Shown here in pieces: positions 10,183-19,473 of a DNA stretch of 64,000 nucleotides. The stretch is from Akkermansiaceae bacterium. Its GTDB lineage: Bacteria > Verrucomicrobiota > Verrucomicrobiia > Verrucomicrobiales > Akkermansiaceae. The notes beneath the pieces are model-generated. The model was not told the origin of the DNA. It saw only the letters and a program-made list of their open reading frames with translations, and did no database searches. The DNA is taken from assembly GCA_025354565.1 (NCBI GenBank), contig JANXMQ010000029.1, positions 1-64,000 on the forward strand. The letters run 5' to 3'. The first letter of the stretch is position 1. Every line of letters begins with the position of its first letter. Both the position numbers and the translations under genes were made by a program.

Positions 10183-12549
10183 TCAAATTTTGACGTGCCG
10201 GACTAACAGCAGGCGGAGGCCGTTCAGGCAGACGAGGACGGTGCTGCCTTCATGGCCAACCACGCCGAGCGGCAGGGCCAGCGAAAAGCCGAGCGCGGCG
10301 CAGATCAAAACGACGATGACGGCGCTGGCGAAAATGAGATTCTGGCGGAGCACCCGTCTGGCCCGTCGGGCGTGATTGAGTAGCAGCGGGATGTTTTCCA
10401 AGCGGTCGCCCATCAGCACGATGTCGGCGGTTTCCATCGCCACGTCGGTGCCAGCCGCGCCCATGGCGACGCCGATGTCGGCGATGGCGAGGGCGGGGGC
10501 GTCGTTCACGCCGTCGCCGATCATCATCACGGTGCCCTCGTTTTTCAACTCGCGGATGACCTTGAGTTTGTCCTCTGGGAGGAGTTCCGCGTGGACTTCA
10601 TCGACCTTGGCTTCACGGGCGATGGCTTCGGCGACGAGGCGCTGGTCACCGGTGAGCATGACCACTTTTTTCACGCCGAGGCGGTGCAGCTCTGCGGCGA
10701 GTTGGCGGGCGGCGGGACGGATGGTGTCGGCCATCACGAGCACGGCCTGCGCGGTGACGGCATCGCCTGTGCGGAGACCCAGCCAGACGCAGGTTTTGCC
10801 CATCGCCTGGAGCGGTTGGGAAACGGCGGCCAAGTCCGTTAGACCGACGGCATCGAGTTCGCGGAACAGGCGTTCGCTGCCGATCAGATAGCGGGCGGCT
10901 TCGATGGTGGCTTCCGCGCCTTTGCCAGCGGTGGATTGGAAATCGGAGGCGACGGGCAGGGTGAGGCCGAGACTGGCCGCGCTGTGGACGATGGCATGGG
11001 CGAGCGGGTGCTCGGACTTTTCCTCCAGGGCGGCGGCGGTGCGGAGCAGGGACAGGACCGGAGCGGGTAGGGGATCGGCGGTTGCGTGAATGCCGTCCGG
11101 CGTTACGATTTCCGTTAGGGAGGGTTTGCCAACCGTTAGAGTGCCGGTTTTATCAATGGCTACGATATCGATTCGCGCCGCGCTCTCGAGGTGGGAGCCG
11201 CCCTTGATCAGAATGCCTCGGCGGGCGGCGCCACCGATGGCGGAGAGCACGGTAGCGGGAGTGCTGATGACTAGTGCGCAGGGTGAGGCGACGACCATGA
11301 TCGTCATGGCCCGATGGAAGGCGTGGGCAAAGGTTTCCGCCCAGAACAGGTAGGGGACCAGAAACACGCCGATGGTGAAGAGGATGACCCCCATCGCGTA
11401 GAATTGCTCGGCGGTTTCGAGGAAGCGCTGGGTCTCGGATTTTTCCGCCTGGGCCTCGGCGACGAGCTTGACCATGCGGGCGAGCGCGGAGTCTTCGGAG
11501 CGCTTGGTCACGCGGAGTTCGATGCCGCCGCTTTGGTTGAGCGTGCCGGCGAAGAGTTGACTGCCGAGGGTTTTAGCAATCGGCATGGACTCGCCTGTTA
11601 GGGAGGACTCGTCAACATAGGTGCCGCCCTCGGCGATCACGCCGTCCACCGGGATCTGCTCGCCGGGGCGGACGATCACGATGTCGCCAATCACCAACTC
11701 CTCGACCGGGATTTTTTCCGTGCCGTCGGCGCGCTTCACGAGTGCCTCCTTGGGCCGGAGTGTGAGCAGGGATTCGATGGCCCGTTGCGTCCGCTCCATG
11801 GCGTGGCGTTGCAGGACGTTGGAAAAACTGAAGAGAAACAACAGCAGCGCGCCCTCGAAGGGGGAACCGATGATCGCCGCCCCGAGCGCCGCCAGAACCA
11901 TCAGCACGTCCACGTCCAGCACCCGTTCGCGCAGCGAAGCGTAGGCCGAGCGCACGCCTTGCTGACCGGCGAAAATATACGCTCCTAGATAAAGACCGTG
12001 GGTGATGATACTGAGCCCCAAGGCTTTTCCCACGATCAGTGCGGCAGTTAGAAAAGCCAGTCCGAGCCCGCAGGAAATTTCCTCATTGAGTTCACCCGCA
12101 CGGATCTTTTCCCAGAGGGCGCGGTGGTCGGTTTCATGTTTGAGTTCCAGAGGTCGGATGTCGGCTCCGGTGGTTAGCACTTGGTCGAGGACGCTGGCAT
12201 CCTTGGCCATCGCGGAGTCGAATGTGACGGATAGCACTTTCCCGAGATAGGTGGCGGAGGCGCGGCGGACGCCGGGGATTTTCTCCACCTTTTTCTCCAG
12301 CTTCAACGCGCAGGCTTCGCAGGCGCTGCCTTGCAGTCGGAAGATCGATTTTTCAACGACGGCGGTAACCTGGTCACTGTGCTCGCGGACCAACTCGCGG
12401 ACCTCGCTCTCGGTTAGGCGTTGCGGGTCGAACTCGATTTCCACCCGGGCATTCACCAGATCTGGCCTGACCTTGAGGATGCCGGTATGGTCCGCGAGGT
12501 CGTGATCGTGGGCGTCCAGGCGGGTGTCATCCAAGGGTGAGTGGTTCAT
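10183..12549 (-). CDS. Heavy-metal P1B-type ATPase, P1B-4-like (SPC motif)
   Basis: A 788-residue inner-membrane metal efflux ATPase. The N-terminus is His/Asp-rich (residues 5-20), followed by a degenerate ferredoxin-like repeat without cysteines and then an HMA domain with CEAC. Core motifs are present: TGES (actuator), SPCALVISTPATVLSA in the metal-binding helix, DKTGTLT phosphorylation site, MLTGD and MIGDGVNDAPAL. The terminal helix has HEGST. SPC plus HEG[ST]T is the signature of the P1B-4 (cobalt/zinc/iron-type) group, unlike the CPC of the copper pump at 51.4-53.7 kb. ATG 12549 is preferred over a TTG eleven codons upstream. It is divergent from a two-component system 155 bases away, which may control it. 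Confidence 0.9.
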   Translation of the reverse strand: MNHSPLDDTRLDAHDHDLADHTGILKVRPDLVNARVEIEFDPQRLTESEVRELVREHSDQVTAVVEKSIFRLQGSACEACALKLEKKVEKIPGVRRASATYLGKVLSVTFDSAMAKDASVLDQVLTTGADIRPLELKHETDHRALWEKIRAGELNEEISCGLGLAFLTAALIVGKALGLSIITHGLYLGAYIFAGQQGVRSAYASLRERVLDVDVLMVLAALGAAIIGSPFEGALLLFLFSFSNVLQRHAMERTQRAIESLLTLRPKEALVKRADGTEKIPVEELVIGDIVIVRPGEQIPVDGVIAEGGTYVDESSLTGESMPIAKTLGSQLFAGTLNQSGGIELRVTKRSEDSALARMVKLVAEAQAEKSETQRFLETAEQFYAMGVILFTIGVFLVPYLFWAETFAHAFHRAMTIMVVASPCALVISTPATVLSAIGGAARRGILIKGGSHLESAARIDIVAIDKTGTLTVGKPSLTEIVTPDGIHATADPLPAPVLSLLRTAAALEEKSEHPLAHAIVHSAASLGLTLPVASDFQSTAGKGAEATIEAARYLIGSERLFRELDAVGLTDLAAVSQPLQAMGKTCVWLGLRTGDAVTAQAVLVMADTIRPAARQLAAELHRLGVKKVVMLTGDQRLVAEAIAREAKVDEVHAELLPEDKLKVIRELKNEGTVMMIGDGVNDAPALAIADIGVAMGAAGTDVAMETADIVLMGDRLENIPLLLNHARRARRVLRQNLIFASAVIVVLICAALGFSLALPLGVVGHEGSTVLVCLNGLRLLLVRHVKI

Positions 12550-12704
12550 GCGGGAAAAATGAGAGGTGGGACAAGTTGGCAAAAACCGATGTCACACGAA
12601 GCCTTTCAGCGCTGAGTCCGGTCCGCAACAACTAAAGATTTCCAACCATTTGGTTACTCGTCTTCGCTTGCTGTCAGGGTGGGGAAAGCCTCTATTGAGG
12701 TCGG

Positions 12705-13382
12705 ATGGATATTTTACTAGTCGAAGATGAGCCTCAACTTGCGGATGTGGTGAATCGTGCCCTCGTGCGGGCGGGACATGTGGTTAGTCGGAAAGAAGAT
12801 GGATTGTCGGCACTTAAAGCGGTGATGAATCATCGGTTCGATTTGGTATTGCTCGATGTGAATTTACCGGGGATCGACGGCTTTGAAGTGCTCGCCAAGA
12901 TTCGTCAGGCGGGCTTGACCGTGCGGGTGCTGATGCTTACGGCGAGGTCTGAGGTCGGGGACCGGGTGGCCGGCCTGAAGGCGGGCGCGGATGACTATCT
13001 AACGAAGCCGTTCGCGATGGAGGAACTGCTAGCACGTGTCGATGTGCTAGGACGGCGTGATGTTTCCACACAGGTATCTGCCATCCTTCAGGTGGGCGAT
13101 TTACGGATGGATATTAGCAAGCGGAGGGTGACGAGGGGGGATGAGAAAATCGAAGTTTCGCCAAGAGAGTTCGATGTGTTGCAGATTTTCATGAAGGAAC
13201 CGGGCCGGGCGTTTTCCAGGGACGAGCTATGTGAACGGATCTGGCAGCGTGAGCATGAATATGACACCCGCACCGTGGAGATTTTCATCATGCGGCTACG
13301 AAAAAAACTCGACCAACCGGGGCGGGAATCCCTAATCCGAACGATCCGGGGCGTGGGCTATATGTTGGAATCCGCGCCATGA
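12705..13382 (+). CDS. OmpR-family response regulator
   Basis: A 225-residue two-domain regulator. The receiver domain (1-120) has the acidic pair in DILLVEDEP, the phospho-acceptor Asp in LVLLDVNLPGIDG, and the conserved Lys in DDYLTKPF. The C-terminal 125-222 is an OmpR/PhoB winged helix (EVSPREFDVLQ, RTIRGVGYML). A TGAGG Shine-Dalgarno-like site lies five bases before the ATG. The stop overlaps the start of the kinase gene by four bases (ATGA), so the two are translationally coupled. Divergence from the metal ATPase suggests metal-responsive control of the CusR/CopR type, but no operator was recognised. Confidence 0.93.
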   Translation: MDILLVEDEPQLADVVNRALVRAGHVVSRKEDGLSALKAVMNHRFDLVLLDVNLPGIDGFEVLAKIRQAGLTVRVLMLTARSEVGDRVAGLKAGADDYLTKPFAMEELLARVDVLGRRDVSTQVSAILQVGDLRMDISKRRVTRGDEKIEVSPREFDVLQIFMKEPGRAFSRDELCERIWQREHEYDTRTVEIFIMRLRKKLDQPGRESLIRTIRGVGYMLESAP

Positions 13383-14728
13383 AACGTTGGTCACTCAAAG
13401 TTAAAGTAGGGCTATATGCCGCGTTGCTCACGATGGTCGCGCTGGTCGCTGGGGTGGTGGTGATGATGGTAACGACGTATTTCTATCAAATATCTGAACT
13501 CGACAAATCGTTGCATGGTGATGCTGTAGAGTTGGTGTGGGATCTGAAAAATTTCCGCGACGGACCGAAGAACCCGCGTGAACCCCTGCGCGAGGAACTT
13601 ATCCCCTTGGACATGCGGGACCATTACCTGATGATCGAGGGACCAGAAGGGCAGCTTCTCTATAAATCATCCAATATCAAACATTCAAATCTGACGGGTA
13701 AATCAGGCCAAGTTCAGACGCAAGATGTGGATGGATACTCCTCGCGGGTGGGCACCTGGCAGGTCGATGACTATCTCATCCACTTGGGCGAACCCTTGAA
13801 CGTCGTCGAGCGATTTCAAAAAATGCTCGGGCTTGGTTTCATGACCGCCTTGCCTGCGGTGGGCTTGGTCGTGTTCTTCGGCGGCGTGTGGCTGGGGCGG
13901 CGGGCGGTTGCCCCGGTCGCCCGCTTGAGTGCTGCCGCAGAGCGCATCAGTGCGAGCAATCCGCAGGAACGCCTGCCAGCGCCCGGAGCCAAAGATGAAA
14001 TCGCCATGCTAACTGAGGTATTGAACCAGAGCTTTGATCGGCTTCAGGCCTCCTACGATATTGCGACCCGCTTCTCGGCCGATGCCTCTCATCAATTGAA
14101 AACTCCCTTGACGATTTTGCGCGCTGGGCTCGATCACCTGTCACGCGATACCGACATGAGCGAGGCGCAGGCCGCGGAAGTCTCACTGCTCACCCAGCAG
14201 ACCCGGCGGCTGACCTCGCTCATTGAGGATCTGTTATTGTTGGCACAGGTGGACATGGGGCGGATGTTTCTGGAAGCAGAGGAGTTCGATCTGAGAACCC
14301 TGATCCATGCCGCCAGCGATGATCTCCTCGTATTGGTCGAGGGCAAAGGGATCTCGGTGGAGGACGAACTTCCAGCCCCTTTACCCGTGAATGCCGACCG
14401 CCGCTTGATCGCCATGGTTTTGCAAAACCTCATCGAAAATGCCGCCAAATACACCTATCTGGGTGGTCAGATCCGGATCACCGGGTTTCACGAAAGCGAC
14501 TGGATCGTCGTTAGAATTGCCAACACCAGCAAGGACATCCCGGCGGTGGACCGCGAACAAATCTTCGAGCGTTTCCGCCGTGGCTCGGGGGTTGGCGGCA
14601 ATGTCCGGGGCCACGGTCTGGGCTTGAACATCGCCAGGGGCTTGATCCGGGCGCACGGTGGGGAAATCCGGCTGAATCCCACCGTGCCGGGCTGGATTGA
14701 ATTCGAAATGCGACTGCCTGCCGGTTAG
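13379..14728 (+). CDS. Sensor histidine kinase
   Basis: A 449-residue inner-membrane kinase. Membrane segments are near residues 12-35 and 153-175, with a periplasmic sensor loop of about 115 residues between. A HAMP linker follows (ARLSAAAERISASNP), then HisKA with the phosphorylated His in SADASHQLKTPLTILRAG. The HATPase_c domain has NLIENAAKY (N box), FERFRRG and GHGLGLNIARGLIRAHGG (G box). The architecture is that of heavy-metal or QseC-type sensors. It overlaps the regulator gene by four bases. The ligand cannot be read from the loop; the neighbouring metal pump makes a metal plausible. Confidence 0.92.
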   Translation: MKRWSLKVKVGLYAALLTMVALVAGVVVMMVTTYFYQISELDKSLHGDAVELVWDLKNFRDGPKNPREPLREELIPLDMRDHYLMIEGPEGQLLYKSSNIKHSNLTGKSGQVQTQDVDGYSSRVGTWQVDDYLIHLGEPLNVVERFQKMLGLGFMTALPAVGLVVFFGGVWLGRRAVAPVARLSAAAERISASNPQERLPAPGAKDEIAMLTEVLNQSFDRLQASYDIATRFSADASHQLKTPLTILRAGLDHLSRDTDMSEAQAAEVSLLTQQTRRLTSLIEDLLLLAQVDMGRMFLEAEEFDLRTLIHAASDDLLVLVEGKGISVEDELPAPLPVNADRRLIAMVLQNLIENAAKYTYLGGQIRITGFHESDWIVVRIANTSKDIPAVDREQIFERFRRGSGVGGNVRGHGLGLNIARGLIRAHGGEIRLNPTVPGWIEFEMRLPAG

Positions 14729-14823: not shown

Positions 14824-14853
14824 CAAGCCGATCCTCTTTCGAGAATCGGCTTG
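14824..14853 (-). terminator. Intrinsic terminator of the PEP-CTERM gene
   Basis: CAAGCCGAT (14824-14832) pairs with ATCGGCTTG (14845-14853), with extra CTC/GAG pairing inside and one mismatch. Read on the minus strand the hairpin is followed by a T-rich tail (TTGTTTTG). It lies about 50 bases past the end of the minus-strand gene at 14901, and may also stop transcripts from the histidine kinase gene. Confidence 0.6.
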
Positions 14854-14900: not shown

Positions 14901-15569
14901 TCACGCTTGGGCACGGCGTTTGCGACGGGCGACGAGACCGAGCACACCGAGGGCGAAGACGCTCAAGGTGGAGGGTTCGGGAACCGCTGCCACACCGGAG
15001 TAGGCACCCGTGCCGGAAAAGCTACTAACCATCGCGTAGGACGTGTTAGAGATTTCCCCGGACAACAAGGTGAGCGTGTCGGGCGAGTTCGTGGTGATTT
15101 GCGCCGGGAACCCAAGCGAGCTGTCGAGGATTCCGACGGTGAACAAGTCCGGGGTGAGTCCGGGGTCAATGTTCAGAGTGGTCGTCACGTCAAAGCCAAT
15201 GGCCGTGGTCGTGGACGAGAACTGCTGATAGATTTCAGCAATACTGAGTGAGTCCGTGAGTGTCGCGCCGGAGGAAAAATCTCCAGTCGCGGTGTCGAAG
15301 ACGCTGGCGAAGCCGATGACGCCACCGCCAGTTCCCAGATAGGTGAAATTGCTGAGGCTGATGGTGTTGTTGCCAGTGGCTCCGCCGCCGTCCGAGAACT
15401 GCATGTCCAGATAGAACGGAGCGGTTCCGCTGGTGCCGAGGGATGCGGTGTTGATGTCCACATGGTAGCTGTATGTCGCGGCGTCTGCGCCGACTTGGAA
15501 CAGCAGGAACGATGCACTGATGGCGAGGATGCCGGCAGTTAGGTGATTTTGCGAGGTGATGCTTTTCAT
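14901..15569 (-). CDS. Exported PEP-CTERM sorting-signal protein
   Basis: A 222-residue protein with a signal peptide (residues 1-31, ILAISASFLLFQVGADA) and a C-terminal PEP-CTERM signal: VPEPSTLS, a hydrophobic stretch (VFALGVLGLVA) and a basic tail (RRKRRAQA). Such proteins are exported and processed by an exosortase, usually in exopolysaccharide-making bacteria. The middle is Ser/Thr/Gly-rich and beta-predicted, resembling the small single-domain PEP-CTERM families, but I cannot name a subfamily with certainty. No exosortase gene is in the window. It sits just downstream of the double phosphatase on the same strand. Confidence 0.85.
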   Translation of the reverse strand: MKSITSQNHLTAGILAISASFLLFQVGADAATYSYHVDINTASLGTSGTAPFYLDMQFSDGGGATGNNTISLSNFTYLGTGGGVIGFASVFDTATGDFSSGATLTDSLSIAEIYQQFSSTTTAIGFDVTTTLNIDPGLTPDLFTVGILDSSLGFPAQITTNSPDTLTLLSGEISNTSYAMVSSFSGTGAYSGVAAVPEPSTLSVFALGVLGLVARRKRRAQA

Positions 15570-15654: not shown

Positions 15655-18600
15655 TTATGGATTCTGCGTGCCTGAGAAGGTGGATGCAGTGTAGGTGATG
15701 GTGCCAGTCCCTGCCGCTGGCCTGATGAACCGCAGTGCAGCGCTAACTGTAGCACCTGGTGCGAGGTCACTATTGGAAACCTTGACGTAGCTCGAACCAA
15801 GCGGGGCGGTGGTGGCCGTGGTGCCGGTGGCGTTGAGCAGCGAGGTATTGGCTGATAGGTTAGTAATATCAATATAGATCGGGCCGACCATTGGCACGGT
15901 GCCGCCGTTAGTGATCTTCACGGTTTGTGTCATGGTATTGCTAATCCGATTCAGCACGTAACCACTGCGGCTGATCCTCAGGTTAGTGAAGATTTCCGAC
16001 ATGCTTGGTGCACTGCCATCACGGCCATTGAGCGAAGGAAGGCCGAAACGTTGCTCGATGGTCGAGAGGATGGACGAGGTATCTAGTGGCGCATGGTGGA
16101 CATAGCCTTTCTTGGCGTATGGCGAAATCACGATGGTAGGGACGCGGACTCCCGGACCCCAGATATCGCGGGTTGGAGGCGTGACGTGATCCCAGCGACC
16201 ACCGTGCTCATCATAGGTGATGATGATGGCGGTATGTGCCCACAAGGTAGGATTGGCTTGGACTGCGGCGACGAGGTCGGCGACGTGCTGTTGCCCCTGT
16301 TGGAGGGAGGCGTAACCGGGGTGCTCGTTGTTGTCTCCGAGGAACTTCACAAACGAGACCTGTGGGAGGGTGCTATTGGCAATGTCGGCGTAGAGATGTG
16401 CTGCTTCGTCCTGCAAGTGCGCCTTGGCATACAAGGCGAGGCCGTCGGGCTGGGCTGCGTCAAAAGGCTTTGTCTTATCGAAATAAGCAAACGCCTGGTG
16501 ATGCCACTGGAAGTTGGTGTCTGCGGCAACCGGGCCATTGGCACCAAGATGCAGCGGATTGGACTTGGACGCGGCAAGCGCCTTGTCCCATCCGCCGGAA
16601 TACCACTTCCATGAAACACCACCTGCGTCGAGGATGTCGCCGATGTTTTGGGTGTATTCGACTCCCGCAGGATTGGTGTTGTTCAGCGAAGGCATGAGCG
16701 CTTGGTTAATGACACTGAATGTCGGGCACATGTTAGCGGTGAACGTGGTGTTCACAACGTAGTGCTTGTTAAAGTGCGAGCCGTCCGCGAAGACGGCGTC
16801 GCTCGGTGTGCCGCTGGGGATGACTGTGGCGGATTGTCCCGAGACGCCATTGATGGTGAGTCCGGTCAGGGAATCACCGACGACTGGTGTGATGCTACCG
16901 TCACGGATGAACTTGCCCGCACTGCCACCGGATGTGTTCAGCCCGAACAAACCGGTGCTATCAAGATAGGCGATGGCACCATTGTTCGAAGTTGGCATGC
17001 TCGGGTAAACCGGCGGTGCAGCCGCGATGAGGAACTGGTGGTTTAGGAACGAGCCGCCAAAGGCCGAGTGGAAGAAGTTGTCGCACATGGTGTATTGTTG
17101 CGCAAGCTTGCCTTCCGGCAGATTGGTGGCGTCAAAGAAGCTCATGACCAAGCCCGGATTGTCCGACCAAGTGACGAAACCGCTATTATTACCCAAGTCG
17201 CTGTCACTGGAGAGCGCACCGGCTGCTTGGAATTGCTCCTGCCAGTATTTATGAACGATGTCGCCCGTGGTTGAGCTGGCTGGAATATAGCTTGCCACAT
17301 CATAGGGTGCCAGAGTGTTCAGGCTTGTCGGGAAGTGGGTATCGATCACGTTGCTGGCGTTGAGTGGCTGTGGTGGAGTGTTTTGCAACGGTGAGGTCTT
17401 GGCCACGTTGTTGTAATTGTTCGTGCCACTCTCGGTGGAAAGGGAGGCCCCCGTGAGGCGGTCCTTCTGGTCGAGGGATGCGGCAGTCGCGTTCGCCCGG
17501 CCATTGGCACCGGGGAAGCTGCCGTAAAGCGCGTCGAAGCTCCAATTTTCCTGATACACCACGATGAAGTTAGTGATGTTGTTGAGCGGGTTCGCAGCAT
17601 CCACTTGGAAGCTGAAGATGGTGTGCGGCGCATTGGTCGCTTGGTTGCCAGTGCCAGCTTCCACGCGGTTGTTCTGCGCGTAAGAATTCACGCCGACGGA
17701 TTTCACTGACAGCGTTTTCCCATCCGCACTCACGTCGAGCACGTTGTAGTTAAACGTATCCGGGCTGTAGAAGTCGGCAAACTGCGGGGTGGCTTCGTTG
17801 ACGAGCGTGCCGTCCTGATCGCGCTTCACATCGTGCAGGCCGGGGTAGCCAGCGAGACCGATGGGTTCGACGCCAGCGGCGCTCTGCTTGTTGGCCAGAT
17901 CGTCGGCGATGGTCTTGATGTTGCTGAAGCTGTGATTCGTGATCGTCTCAGGGCCGGTGGCACCGAATGGACCGTCCACGACTTCAAAACAGTAAGGCAC
18001 CTTCACGTAGCTCGACTGCACATTGGTCTGACCAGTGGGCGAATAGAGAATTTCGTTGATGCGATTCTGGTGATCGTCGGTGGTGAGAAAGACGACGTTC
18101 TGGATCTGATGATCCGCGATGAACTTAAGAAGCTGATTGCGCTCGTAGCGGTAGCCGCCCATGAGCGCCTTGCCGCCGTCGCTGTTGACGCCCGTGAGAG
18201 TACCGGTCAGCACACCGCCGATCGGACCGATCTGATCGATCGGGTCGGAGATAGCGACGAACTTCCAAGGTGTGCCCGTATTCTGCGCGGTGAGGAGCGT
18301 CTGCTCGATCCATGCGAGCTGCGTCGCGCCAAAGTAAGTGCGAGCAACATTATCTGCGCGGGAGCCGGTGTCGTCCGCATTGCCAGCGGTGCGGAGGCGA
18401 ATATCGCGATACGAGCGTGTGTCCGTGTTGAGCAGGATCGCATTTTTGCCCCACTGCTGGGACATGTAGAGTTGCTGCGTGCCGTTCGTGCGCAGATCGC
18501 TCGGCGCATTGATCAGGCCGCGATTTTTGATCGGCTGGTAATCGCTGTAAGCACCGACGAGCGTCGTGAAGCCGGCGGTCTTATTGATGAATGTGCCGGT

Positions 18601-19473
18601 CGTGTTGACGTCGTTCGCCGTGTTCGCGGGGTCCACGCCTGCGCCGGGGATGAGGGATGAACTCACGTTGCCGCCTGCGGCAGCGCCCCCGTGCATATAC
18701 TGCTTGTTACCGAGTTCGTGGTTGTCGAGCAGCGTGTAGTTGCCTTGCGCGGCGAAGAAATCCTGAAGGCAGTTCTGGCCGCCAGAATTGATGGCGACGA
18801 ACTGCTCGCGATACTTGCGTGTATAGTCCGTGTAGAGCGTTGTCGGTGTAGCGCCGGACGTATTCGTCGGGGAACCGGCGGCAAATGCACCGCTCGCGGC
18901 AACCGCTGCGGAGCCCGTACTCGCGGTCTCATAGATCGTGTCGCCGATGTTCATGAAGAAGTCGAAGCTGTTTGCCGTGAAACCATTTCCTAGCGTGTAG
19001 GGGCGCATGAGGCCGTCGTAGTCGCCGCTGAAGGCGAAGTGTAAGGGTGCCGCCGCGCTGGGTGCTGGCGGTGTCTTGAACTTGCCAATGTTGCTCAGCT
19101 CGCCGCCGGAGCCAACGAACTGATAGTAATAGACGGTCGCCGGAATCAGGCTGCCGACAGTCACTTTACAGGTGAAATCGTGCGCCGTATCCGTGGTCTG
19201 GCCCGCGAGTGTAGTCACGCCGCTCGCGAGCGTCGGACTCGTGGGGGAGATCTTGAGCGTGAGCGTGGTTGACGATGTCGGAGCCGCGCTGTCAATCGCG
19301 CGGGTCCAGACGATGGCGTCCGAGCTGGTCGCGTCGCCCGCAGCGACACCCAGGAATGACACGGTTGCGGATGCTTCGGTGATGAGCAACTGACAGAAGC
19401 TGGCAGTGCCGATGGCGATAACAAACGACCGAATGAACGGCGATTGTTTGCGTGGCTGATAAATTGGTTTCAT
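15655..19473 (-). CDS. Secreted fusion: PhoD-like phosphatase + phospholipase C/acid phosphatase-type phosphoesterase
   Basis: A 1272-residue exported protein (signal region about 1-37). Residues about 38-600 resemble PhoD alkaline phosphatase: an N-terminal Fn3-like part (GVAAGDATSSDAIVWTRA), then the metal-binding motifs SGDYDG, NIGDTIYE and LLDNHELGN. Residues about 615-1165 resemble the phosphoesterase family (PF04185) of phospholipase C and acid phosphatases: NFIVVYQENWSFDALYG, a CDNFFHSAFGGSFLNH block, IIITYDEHGGRWDHV and VPTIVISPYAKKG. The last 100 residues are a beta-sandwich tail without a recognised anchor. Each half is about the length of a free-standing enzyme. The likely role is scavenging phosphate from organic phosphate outside the cell. 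A Pho-box-like repeat lies upstream. Confidence 0.85.
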   Translation of the reverse strand: MKPIYQPRKQSPFIRSFVIAIGTASFCQLLITEASATVSFLGVAAGDATSSDAIVWTRAIDSAAPTSSTTLTLKISPTSPTLASGVTTLAGQTTDTAHDFTCKVTVGSLIPATVYYYQFVGSGGELSNIGKFKTPPAPSAAAPLHFAFSGDYDGLMRPYTLGNGFTANSFDFFMNIGDTIYETASTGSAAVAASGAFAAGSPTNTSGATPTTLYTDYTRKYREQFVAINSGGQNCLQDFFAAQGNYTLLDNHELGNKQYMHGGAAAGGNVSSSLIPGAGVDPANTANDVNTTGTFINKTAGFTTLVGAYSDYQPIKNRGLINAPSDLRTNGTQQLYMSQQWGKNAILLNTDTRSYRDIRLRTAGNADDTGSRADNVARTYFGATQLAWIEQTLLTAQNTGTPWKFVAISDPIDQIGPIGGVLTGTLTGVNSDGGKALMGGYRYERNQLLKFIADHQIQNVVFLTTDDHQNRINEILYSPTGQTNVQSSYVKVPYCFEVVDGPFGATGPETITNHSFSNIKTIADDLANKQSAAGVEPIGLAGYPGLHDVKRDQDGTLVNEATPQFADFYSPDTFNYNVLDVSADGKTLSVKSVGVNSYAQNNRVEAGTGNQATNAPHTIFSFQVDAANPLNNITNFIVVYQENWSFDALYGSFPGANGRANATAASLDQKDRLTGASLSTESGTNNYNNVAKTSPLQNTPPQPLNASNVIDTHFPTSLNTLAPYDVASYIPASSTTGDIVHKYWQEQFQAAGALSSDSDLGNNSGFVTWSDNPGLVMSFFDATNLPEGKLAQQYTMCDNFFHSAFGGSFLNHQFLIAAAPPVYPSMPTSNNGAIAYLDSTGLFGLNTSGGSAGKFIRDGSITPVVGDSLTGLTINGVSGQSATVIPSGTPSDAVFADGSHFNKHYVVNTTFTANMCPTFSVINQALMPSLNNTNPAGVEYTQNIGDILDAGGVSWKWYSGGWDKALAASKSNPLHLGANGPVAADTNFQWHHQAFAYFDKTKPFDAAQPDGLALYAKAHLQDEAAHLYADIANSTLPQVSFVKFLGDNNEHPGYASLQQGQQHVADLVAAVQANPTLWAHTAIIITYDEHGGRWDHVTPPTRDIWGPGVRVPTIVISPYAKKGYVHHAPLDTSSILSTIEQRFGLPSLNGRDGSAPSMSEIFTNLRISRSGYVLNRISNTMTQTVKITNGGTVPMVGPIYIDITNLSANTSLLNATGTTATTAPLGSSYVKVSNSDLAPGATVSAALRFIRPAAGTGTITYTASTFSGTQNP

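Follow-up and report, generated by a model that had tools for sequence, protein, structure and literature searches.

PhoD enzymes are chiefly diesterases, and AcpA-like enzymes form a family of monoesterases. The published account of Bacillus subtilis PhoD (PMC4223295) describes the protein as exported by the twin-arginine translocation (Tat) pathway, names a Cys and an Asp subfamily of PhoD, and gives the variants C180A, D265A, N271A, N272A and D436A as inactive and the variants D207A and D266A as drastically reduced in activity. PEP-CTERM proteins are described in their founding paper (PMC1569441) as typically lacking homology outside the sorting domain. Here, we analyse a stretch of 64,000 nucleotides from an Akkermansiaceae bacterium (GenBank assembly GCA_025354565.1, contig JANXMQ010000029.1, positions 1 to 64,000 of the forward strand), referred to as the window, in which one gene joins a PhoD-like metallophosphatase, an AcpA-like phosphoesterase and a C-terminal domain (Ct), and the next gene encodes a PEP-CTERM protein of the NF038129 family. 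The interpretation that we favour, and to which we give about an even chance, is that the fusion is a Sec-exported, three-module enzyme for organophosphate scavenging, that its gene is the first of a two-gene unit, and that Ct is held by the NF038129 partner.

Results

The fusion is encoded on the minus strand by a single, uninterrupted open reading frame (ORF) of 1272 amino acids plus stop (window positions 19473-15655); the plus strand reading across 15655-19473 contains 14 stops. By eye, residues 1-36 (19366-19473) look like a Sec signal peptide, with a hydrophobic run, A-x-A at 34-36 and no twin-arginine pair. They are followed by a PhoD_N beta-sandwich domain (PF16655; residues 41-134, 19072-19353), a PhoD-like metallophosphatase domain (PF09423; residues 135-626, Pfam 166-513, 17596-19071), an AcpA-like phosphoesterase domain (PF04185; residues 627-1150, Pfam 633-1146, 16024-17595) and Ct (residues 1155-1272, 15658-16011), all on the same strand. 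PhoD_N (E-value 1.1e-13; 52 bits versus a cut-off of 30), PhoD (7.9e-30; 104.6 bits versus 27) and PF04185 (6.7e-72) all pass the curated Pfam cut-offs. Thus, the domain search over the whole protein bears out a preliminary description of this DNA, according to which two different phosphatase folds lie in one exported chain. That description named no strand, and it overlooked what is more unusual here, namely Ct and the adjacent gene for a PEP-CTERM partner.

The partner gene lies 86 bp downstream of the fusion on the same strand (14901-15569) and encodes a protein of 222 amino acids with a signal peptide, a PEP motif, a hydrophobic helix and a basic tail. It scores 82.8 bits against NF038129 (cut-off 65) and 30.4 against PEP-CTERM PF07589 (cut-off 20.7), and is the only PEP-CTERM-like ORF by motif in the window; a PDB search with its profile gave no match at E-values of 10 or less. 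The genome contains one exosortase gene (PF09721, 157 bits, G000:C174). A hairpin scan detected a terminator-like hairpin of 13 pairs with a T tail after the partner gene (14824-14853, minus strand) and, on that strand, none between fusion and partner, an arrangement that fits a shared transcript, and we infer that the fusion and the partner are probably co-transcribed.

Ct, the last ~115 amino acids of the fusion, forms a separate domain that is predicted to be beta-rich. Its best Pfam match, DUF4352 (E 0.016), is under the cut-off, and no PDB chain was found by sequence below E 0.1; we do not present its fold as new. Ct is present on 8 of the 13 distinct intact fusions described below; the other five (L071, L072, L074, L077 and L078) have a different tail, L078 being counted among them because its tail reads ..FYRLVRP and its genome has no Ct profile match. 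Ct also occurs outside the fusions. It is carried by L030, a phosphoesterase that has no PhoD domain, by L060, which conversely has PhoD but no phosphoesterase, by the GH5 cellulase L156, which in addition contains CBM46 and CBM_X2, and by the 913-amino-acid protein L155, and it ends a set of ~635-amino-acid proteins of no recognised family (L039, L041, L042, L060 and L150-L154). A PhoX-like label, given by eye to this last set, was rejected: it found no support in Pfam (searched to E 0.01 for L039, L041, L042 and L060, and to E 1 for L150 and L152), NCBIfam (two proteins) or PDB (profile A5, seven proteins).

Across genomes, 20 of 21 genes for NF038129 proteins, which are ~215 amino acids long, lie directly after a Ct match, at 70-153 bp from match to match, and 20 of 24 Ct matches lie directly before an NF038129 gene. 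This tally omitted the weak Ct matches in G259, G309 and G683, the below-cut-off NF038129 matches G254:C185, G319:C33 and G688:C92, and the genomes G165 and G093, the PEP-CTERM neighbours of which are known by motif and not by the NF038129 profile. Among the 73 genomes of the window's genus, strong Ct matches (E < 1e-30) and above-cut-off NF038129 matches occur in the identical 11 genomes; weak Ct matches (E about 1e-8), without NF038129, occur in G259 and G309. In two samples of the phylum (387 and 194 genomes), Ct or NF038129 was found in the window's own genome and in G460 only, the latter with two copies of each, arranged in pairs. Finally, among 16 genomes with relatives of the fusion, eight have a strong Ct and an above-cut-off NF038129, G691 has Ct only, and seven have neither at those thresholds. 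These counts come from related genomes and do not represent independent events, and no p-value is claimed.

A motif scan of downstream regions gave a similar picture. The partner was found behind 8/8 true Ct fusions (the script's class gave 8/9, the ninth being L078) and behind 3/3 phosphoesterase-Ct genes, two of which are cut by a contig edge, and the pair is also present at the GH5 cellulase L156. By contrast, a PEP-CTERM ORF was found within 1600 bp downstream in 0/4 Ct-less fusions and in 0/41 Ct-less phosphoesterases, three of which had less than 900 bp of downstream sequence; L078 has 674 bp downstream, with no PEP-CTERM there. All seven scanned neighbours besides the window's own are NF038129 proteins above the cut-off. 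The scan count omitted the duplicates L067, L068, L070, L073 and L080 (identical to L058, L059, L029, L028 and L030, respectively), 3'-open ORFs and ORFs with less than 50% coverage of every part.

Several Ct loci have further features. A gene that by eye is SCO/SenC-like lies near a number of them (L029:7290-8216, L030:10489-11493, L069:5056-5694, L081:2630-3577 and L194 before 2611), and such a gene also directly precedes the sole NF038129 gene without an adjacent Ct gene. In L154 (G093:C25), the Ct protein is followed by two consecutive PEP-CTERM ORFs, 25 and 686 bp downstream. At L028:5698-6387 (G278:C224:21601-21933), a Ct-bearing fragment interrupted by a TAG lies behind the partner and may be the remnant of a second enzyme. 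L195 (G691:C36), a short-type phosphoesterase with a divergent Ct in a genome without an NF038129 match, is the clearest exception to the pairing.

We identified relatives of the fusion by searching a three-fusion alignment against 84,980 species, each represented by one genome, which gave 62 loci. Twelve of these are full-length fusions (L067-L075 and L077-L079), four of them from the same genomes as G323, G320, G069 and G278, and one additional fusion (L076) is truncated within the PhoD part by a contig end. The survey of how often the fusion occurs, which had been proposed as a check, thus yields 13 distinct intact fusions including that of the window, one of them from the cultured isolate Chthoniobacter flavus Ellin428. 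The fusion is present in 4/73 genomes of the genus, in at least 3/288 genomes of an order sample and, in the phylum sample of 387 genomes, in its own genome only (at least 1/387); the order and phylum counts are lower bounds because only about two candidates were scored per genome. The joint is nearly linkerless, with 170-176 residues between TDDHQN and YQENW in 12/13 fusions and 189 in L058. Moreover, the divergence of the two halves correlates (Mantel r 0.575; 1/9999 permutations as high). In a tree of the phosphoesterase half, all fusions fall within one supported verrucomicrobial clade (100/99), which also includes two PhoD-less phosphoesterases (L030 and L082) and two genes truncated by contig ends; the most economical interpretation of this tree would be one old fusion, the PhoD part of which was later lost or swapped. 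A plasmid search with a 300-amino-acid query across the joint gave no place with 80% coverage (0/84 matching records). Two further genes carry PF04185: L082:4462-8427 encodes a 1321-amino-acid protein without PhoD but with three consecutive PF04185 stretches (two short-type and one AcpA-type), and a weak second match (53 bits) lies in the window's own genome at G000:C19:1273-2082, within a 908-amino-acid frame.

The model of the phosphoesterase half is good (predicted local distance difference test score, pLDDT, 84.7) and was compared with known structures using VIA-align. Francisella AcpA (2d1g) gave Z 31.1 at a root mean square deviation (rmsd) of 2.4 over 380 aligned residues, and phospholipase C (PLC) structures ranked below it (Z 25-29). 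AcpA is also the top phmmer and profile match; by Foldseek E-value alone, the PLC chain 8yk5 and PlcN are slightly ahead of it. S808 aligns to AcpA Ser175 and is invariant in 41/41 aligned proteins, whereas Thr occupies this position in the PLC chains 8yk5 and 9gy2. The score against TIGR03396 (PC_PLC, phosphocholine-specific phospholipase C) is 125.4 bits, far under the cut-off of 580.25. Thus, a PLC identity was rejected in favour of an AcpA-like one on the grounds of the best fold match, Ser for Thr and the low PC_PLC score, and the 'phospholipase C-type' of the preliminary description was too broad a term. Because the score against TIGR03397 (acid_phos_Burk; 336.3 bits) is also under its cut-off (362.75), we refer to this half as AcpA-like and not as a TIGR03397 member. 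Besides S808, its key residues by alignment are E642, N643, H991, H992, H1051, D1088, E1089 and H1096, all of which are identical in 13/13 fusions.

For the PhoD half, the model is of moderate confidence (pLDDT 62.5). It aligned to B. subtilis PhoD (2yeq) at Z 26.2 and rmsd 3.3 over 429 residues, and purple acid phosphatases (PAPs) scored lower (Z up to 21.8). The Fe3+ site, as aligned to 2yeq, is kept in 13/13 fusions (D151 in place of Cys180, D178, Y181 and H468); the remaining key residues of the domain are D250, N251, N256, K257 and D466. In the profile alignment, D265, D266, N271 and N272 of B. subtilis PhoD correspond to D250, N251, N256 and K/R257; the fusion therefore retains D250 and N256 and lacks the full set of Ca ligands. 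The metal motifs had been described as apparently intact in both halves; this holds for the phosphoesterase half but not for the PhoD half, in which two of seven mutation-tested PhoD ligands are replaced. Over both halves, 19 of the 21 catalytic columns compared are identical in 13/13 fusions, position 257 is K or R, and D410 is variable. The altered motif is also found in the single-gene PhoD-Ct protein of G305 and in a paralogue in the window's own genome (WDNHELGNRK). By contrast, of eight further PhoD domains from Verrucomicrobia that were compared, seven (those of two short enzymes and of five giants) have the near-standard pattern of DDHE followed by N and N/D; the eighth (L037) reads WDDHEFSDDN. 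We take N251 to recall the GNHE motif of PAPs, and we read the PhoD half as a PhoD variant in which the metal site would be PAP-like, with two metals, and a cationic residue would stand at the CaB position.

The paralogue (L031:2941-10293; G000:C110:33000-52000) is a 2450-amino-acid protein with Flg_new repeats, LTD, DUF11, a Phytase-like domain (PF13449) and a PhoD domain, the best stretch of which is 59% identical to the PhoD of the fusion; it represents a second way to pair PhoD with another phosphatase-like module. Giant verrucomicrobial ORFs of 2300-3850 amino acids (L032-L038, L040, L046 and L047) similarly embed a PhoD-like stretch, and LTD, Ig-like or propeller-type domains are present as well in those that were scanned. 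Elsewhere in the window (10183-14728), an HMA-type P-type ATPase adjoins a divergent response regulator/histidine kinase pair (12705-14728); this group is probably metal-related. Regulation by the pair was considered on the Pfam matches only and was not adopted.

Discussion

In the mechanism that we infer for secretion, for both activities and their order, for physical docking and for surface location, the PhoD-like half, with its Asp-Asp-Tyr-His Fe site and altered second metal site, would most likely cleave phosphodiesters, and the AcpA-like half would take phosphate off the monoesters released next to it by means of its Ser nucleophile. Ct would be a non-catalytic beta-sandwich that tethers the enzyme to the NF038129 PEP-CTERM product of the next gene, which the exosortase may process and send to the cell surface or the exopolysaccharide layer. 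Action on diester and then monoester, which the preliminary description gave as an example, is plausible, with the PhoD half first and the AcpA-like half second because of the preferences of the two families; this order is the reverse of what a PLC-type name for the second half suggests. A docking tail with a dedicated exosortase-sorted anchor fits because Ct tracks the partner and not the enzyme, i.e. different enzymes share Ct, and Ct-less versions of the fusion have no partner. More broadly, and with a probability that we place a little short of even, Ct and NF038129 may constitute an undescribed verrucomicrobial display system that captures any Ct-tailed enzyme, the PhoD half being in addition a variant with a PAP-like Asn and Lys/Arg in place of CaB.

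Several observations weigh against this interpretation. The double enzyme can do without Ct, since 5/13 fusions lack it. In G305, the same-strand partner of PhoD-Ct is two genes on; the second Ct copy in G278 is a fragment with a stop and lies behind the partner; a Ct in G689 has no adjacent NF038129, and the one in G691 has no NF038129 match in its genome; and the NF038129 gene G689:C126 is preceded by an SCO-like gene and not by Ct. Moreover, many of the genomes are metagenome-assembled, and several pairs are near-duplicates. Finally, D266 and N272, both Ca ligands in B. subtilis PhoD, are replaced in 13/13 fusions by Asn and Lys/Arg, respectively, and the PhoD half may therefore be impaired or work in a different way. 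The existence of Ct-less fusions and the predicted beta-rich nature of Ct, such tails being common on exoenzymes, would also suit an ordinary phosphate-scavenging double phosphatase, in which Ct would serve as a generic, Ig-like tail with a stabilising role and the PEP-CTERM protein would be a matrix protein that is merely co-transcribed and does not bind Ct. We consider this rather unlikely: the pairing is nearly one-to-one over GH5, PhoD, phosphoesterase, fusion and unassigned proteins, and it tracks Ct instead of the enzyme.

The replaced ligands could also signify that the PhoD half is degenerate and mainly a structural or binding module, leaving the AcpA-like half as the only catalyst, all the more as alanine at these two positions cut or abolished activity in the B. 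subtilis enzyme as reported in the mutational account (PMC4223295). However, D151, D178, Y181, D250, N256, D466 and H468 are invariant in 13/13 fusions and the paralogue has the same altered motif in a separate protein, so that a working variant fits better than decay, which we regard as improbable. That an assembly or sequencing artefact fused two genes could be argued from relatives in which the parts are separate, since the PhoD part is its own gene with Ct in G305 and G076 carries the phosphoesterase part alone. The fusion nevertheless recurs intact, and with a constant joint, in 13 distinct, independent copies from separate assemblies, one of which is that of a cultured isolate; this refutes an artefact, to which we assign a negligible probability, and the missed stop or sequencing error near residue 600 that the preliminary description had considered is excluded by the same intact ORF in 12 further distinct genomes.

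We searched the literature on PhoD/PhoX multidomain proteins, verrucomicrobial fusions, and PEP-CTERM operons, anchors and partners, and found no account of this fusion or of the Ct/NF038129 pair; for NF038129, no paper was found. As far as these searches reach, the component parts are of known kinds and their combination and pairing are new. To our knowledge, most PEP-CTERM proteins are without a known function; a paired role for one family would be new because members typically lack homology beyond the sorting domain. That Ct travels with one PEP-CTERM family over unrelated enzymes suggests a testable enzyme-anchor role for this family and, if this is true, Ct would serve in Verrucomicrobia as a portable tag for surface display. 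The fusion, the carriers of which include some soil and freshwater Verrucomicrobia, is a candidate for one-chain conversion of diesters into phosphate during the cycling of organic phosphorus. The altered metal site of its PhoD half offers a test of whether a cationic residue can replace the third metal of PhoD.

Among known systems, the second half of the fusion is most like Francisella AcpA, with which it has in common the fold and the equivalents of what we take to be the Ser nucleophile, E43, N44, the His residues and D386 of AcpA; it differs in that D387 is Glu and that the domain forms the C-terminal half of a larger chain. With the PLCs (TIGR03396; 9gy2, 8yk5 and 8hav) it shares the PF04185 superfamily and the E/N/D/E of the metal site but, unlike 8yk5 and 9gy2, it does not have Thr at the nucleophile position. 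The anchoring of cellulosomal enzymes by cohesin and dockerin, in which we take a small module at the C terminus of the enzyme to be paired with a surface-anchored partner from a separate gene, is similar in design; in our case, no sequence likeness was shown, there is one adjacent partner gene per enzyme, and PEP-CTERM/exosortase sorting takes the place of a scaffoldin. B. subtilis PhoD has the same order of PhoD_N and PhoD, the same fold, the Asp/Tyr/His of the Fe site and the equivalents of D265, N271 and D436, but the fusion has Asp for Cys180, as in a subfamily named in the account of that enzyme (PMC4223295), Asn for D266 and Lys/Arg for N272, no visible twin-arginine signal, and a second enzyme fused to it. 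Finally, the partner has the PEP-CTERM architecture of the exosortase (EpsH) system as described in its founding paper (PMC1569441), and an exosortase is present in the genome, but the enzyme itself is without PEP-CTERM and instead has a Ct that co-occurs with a PEP-CTERM neighbour.

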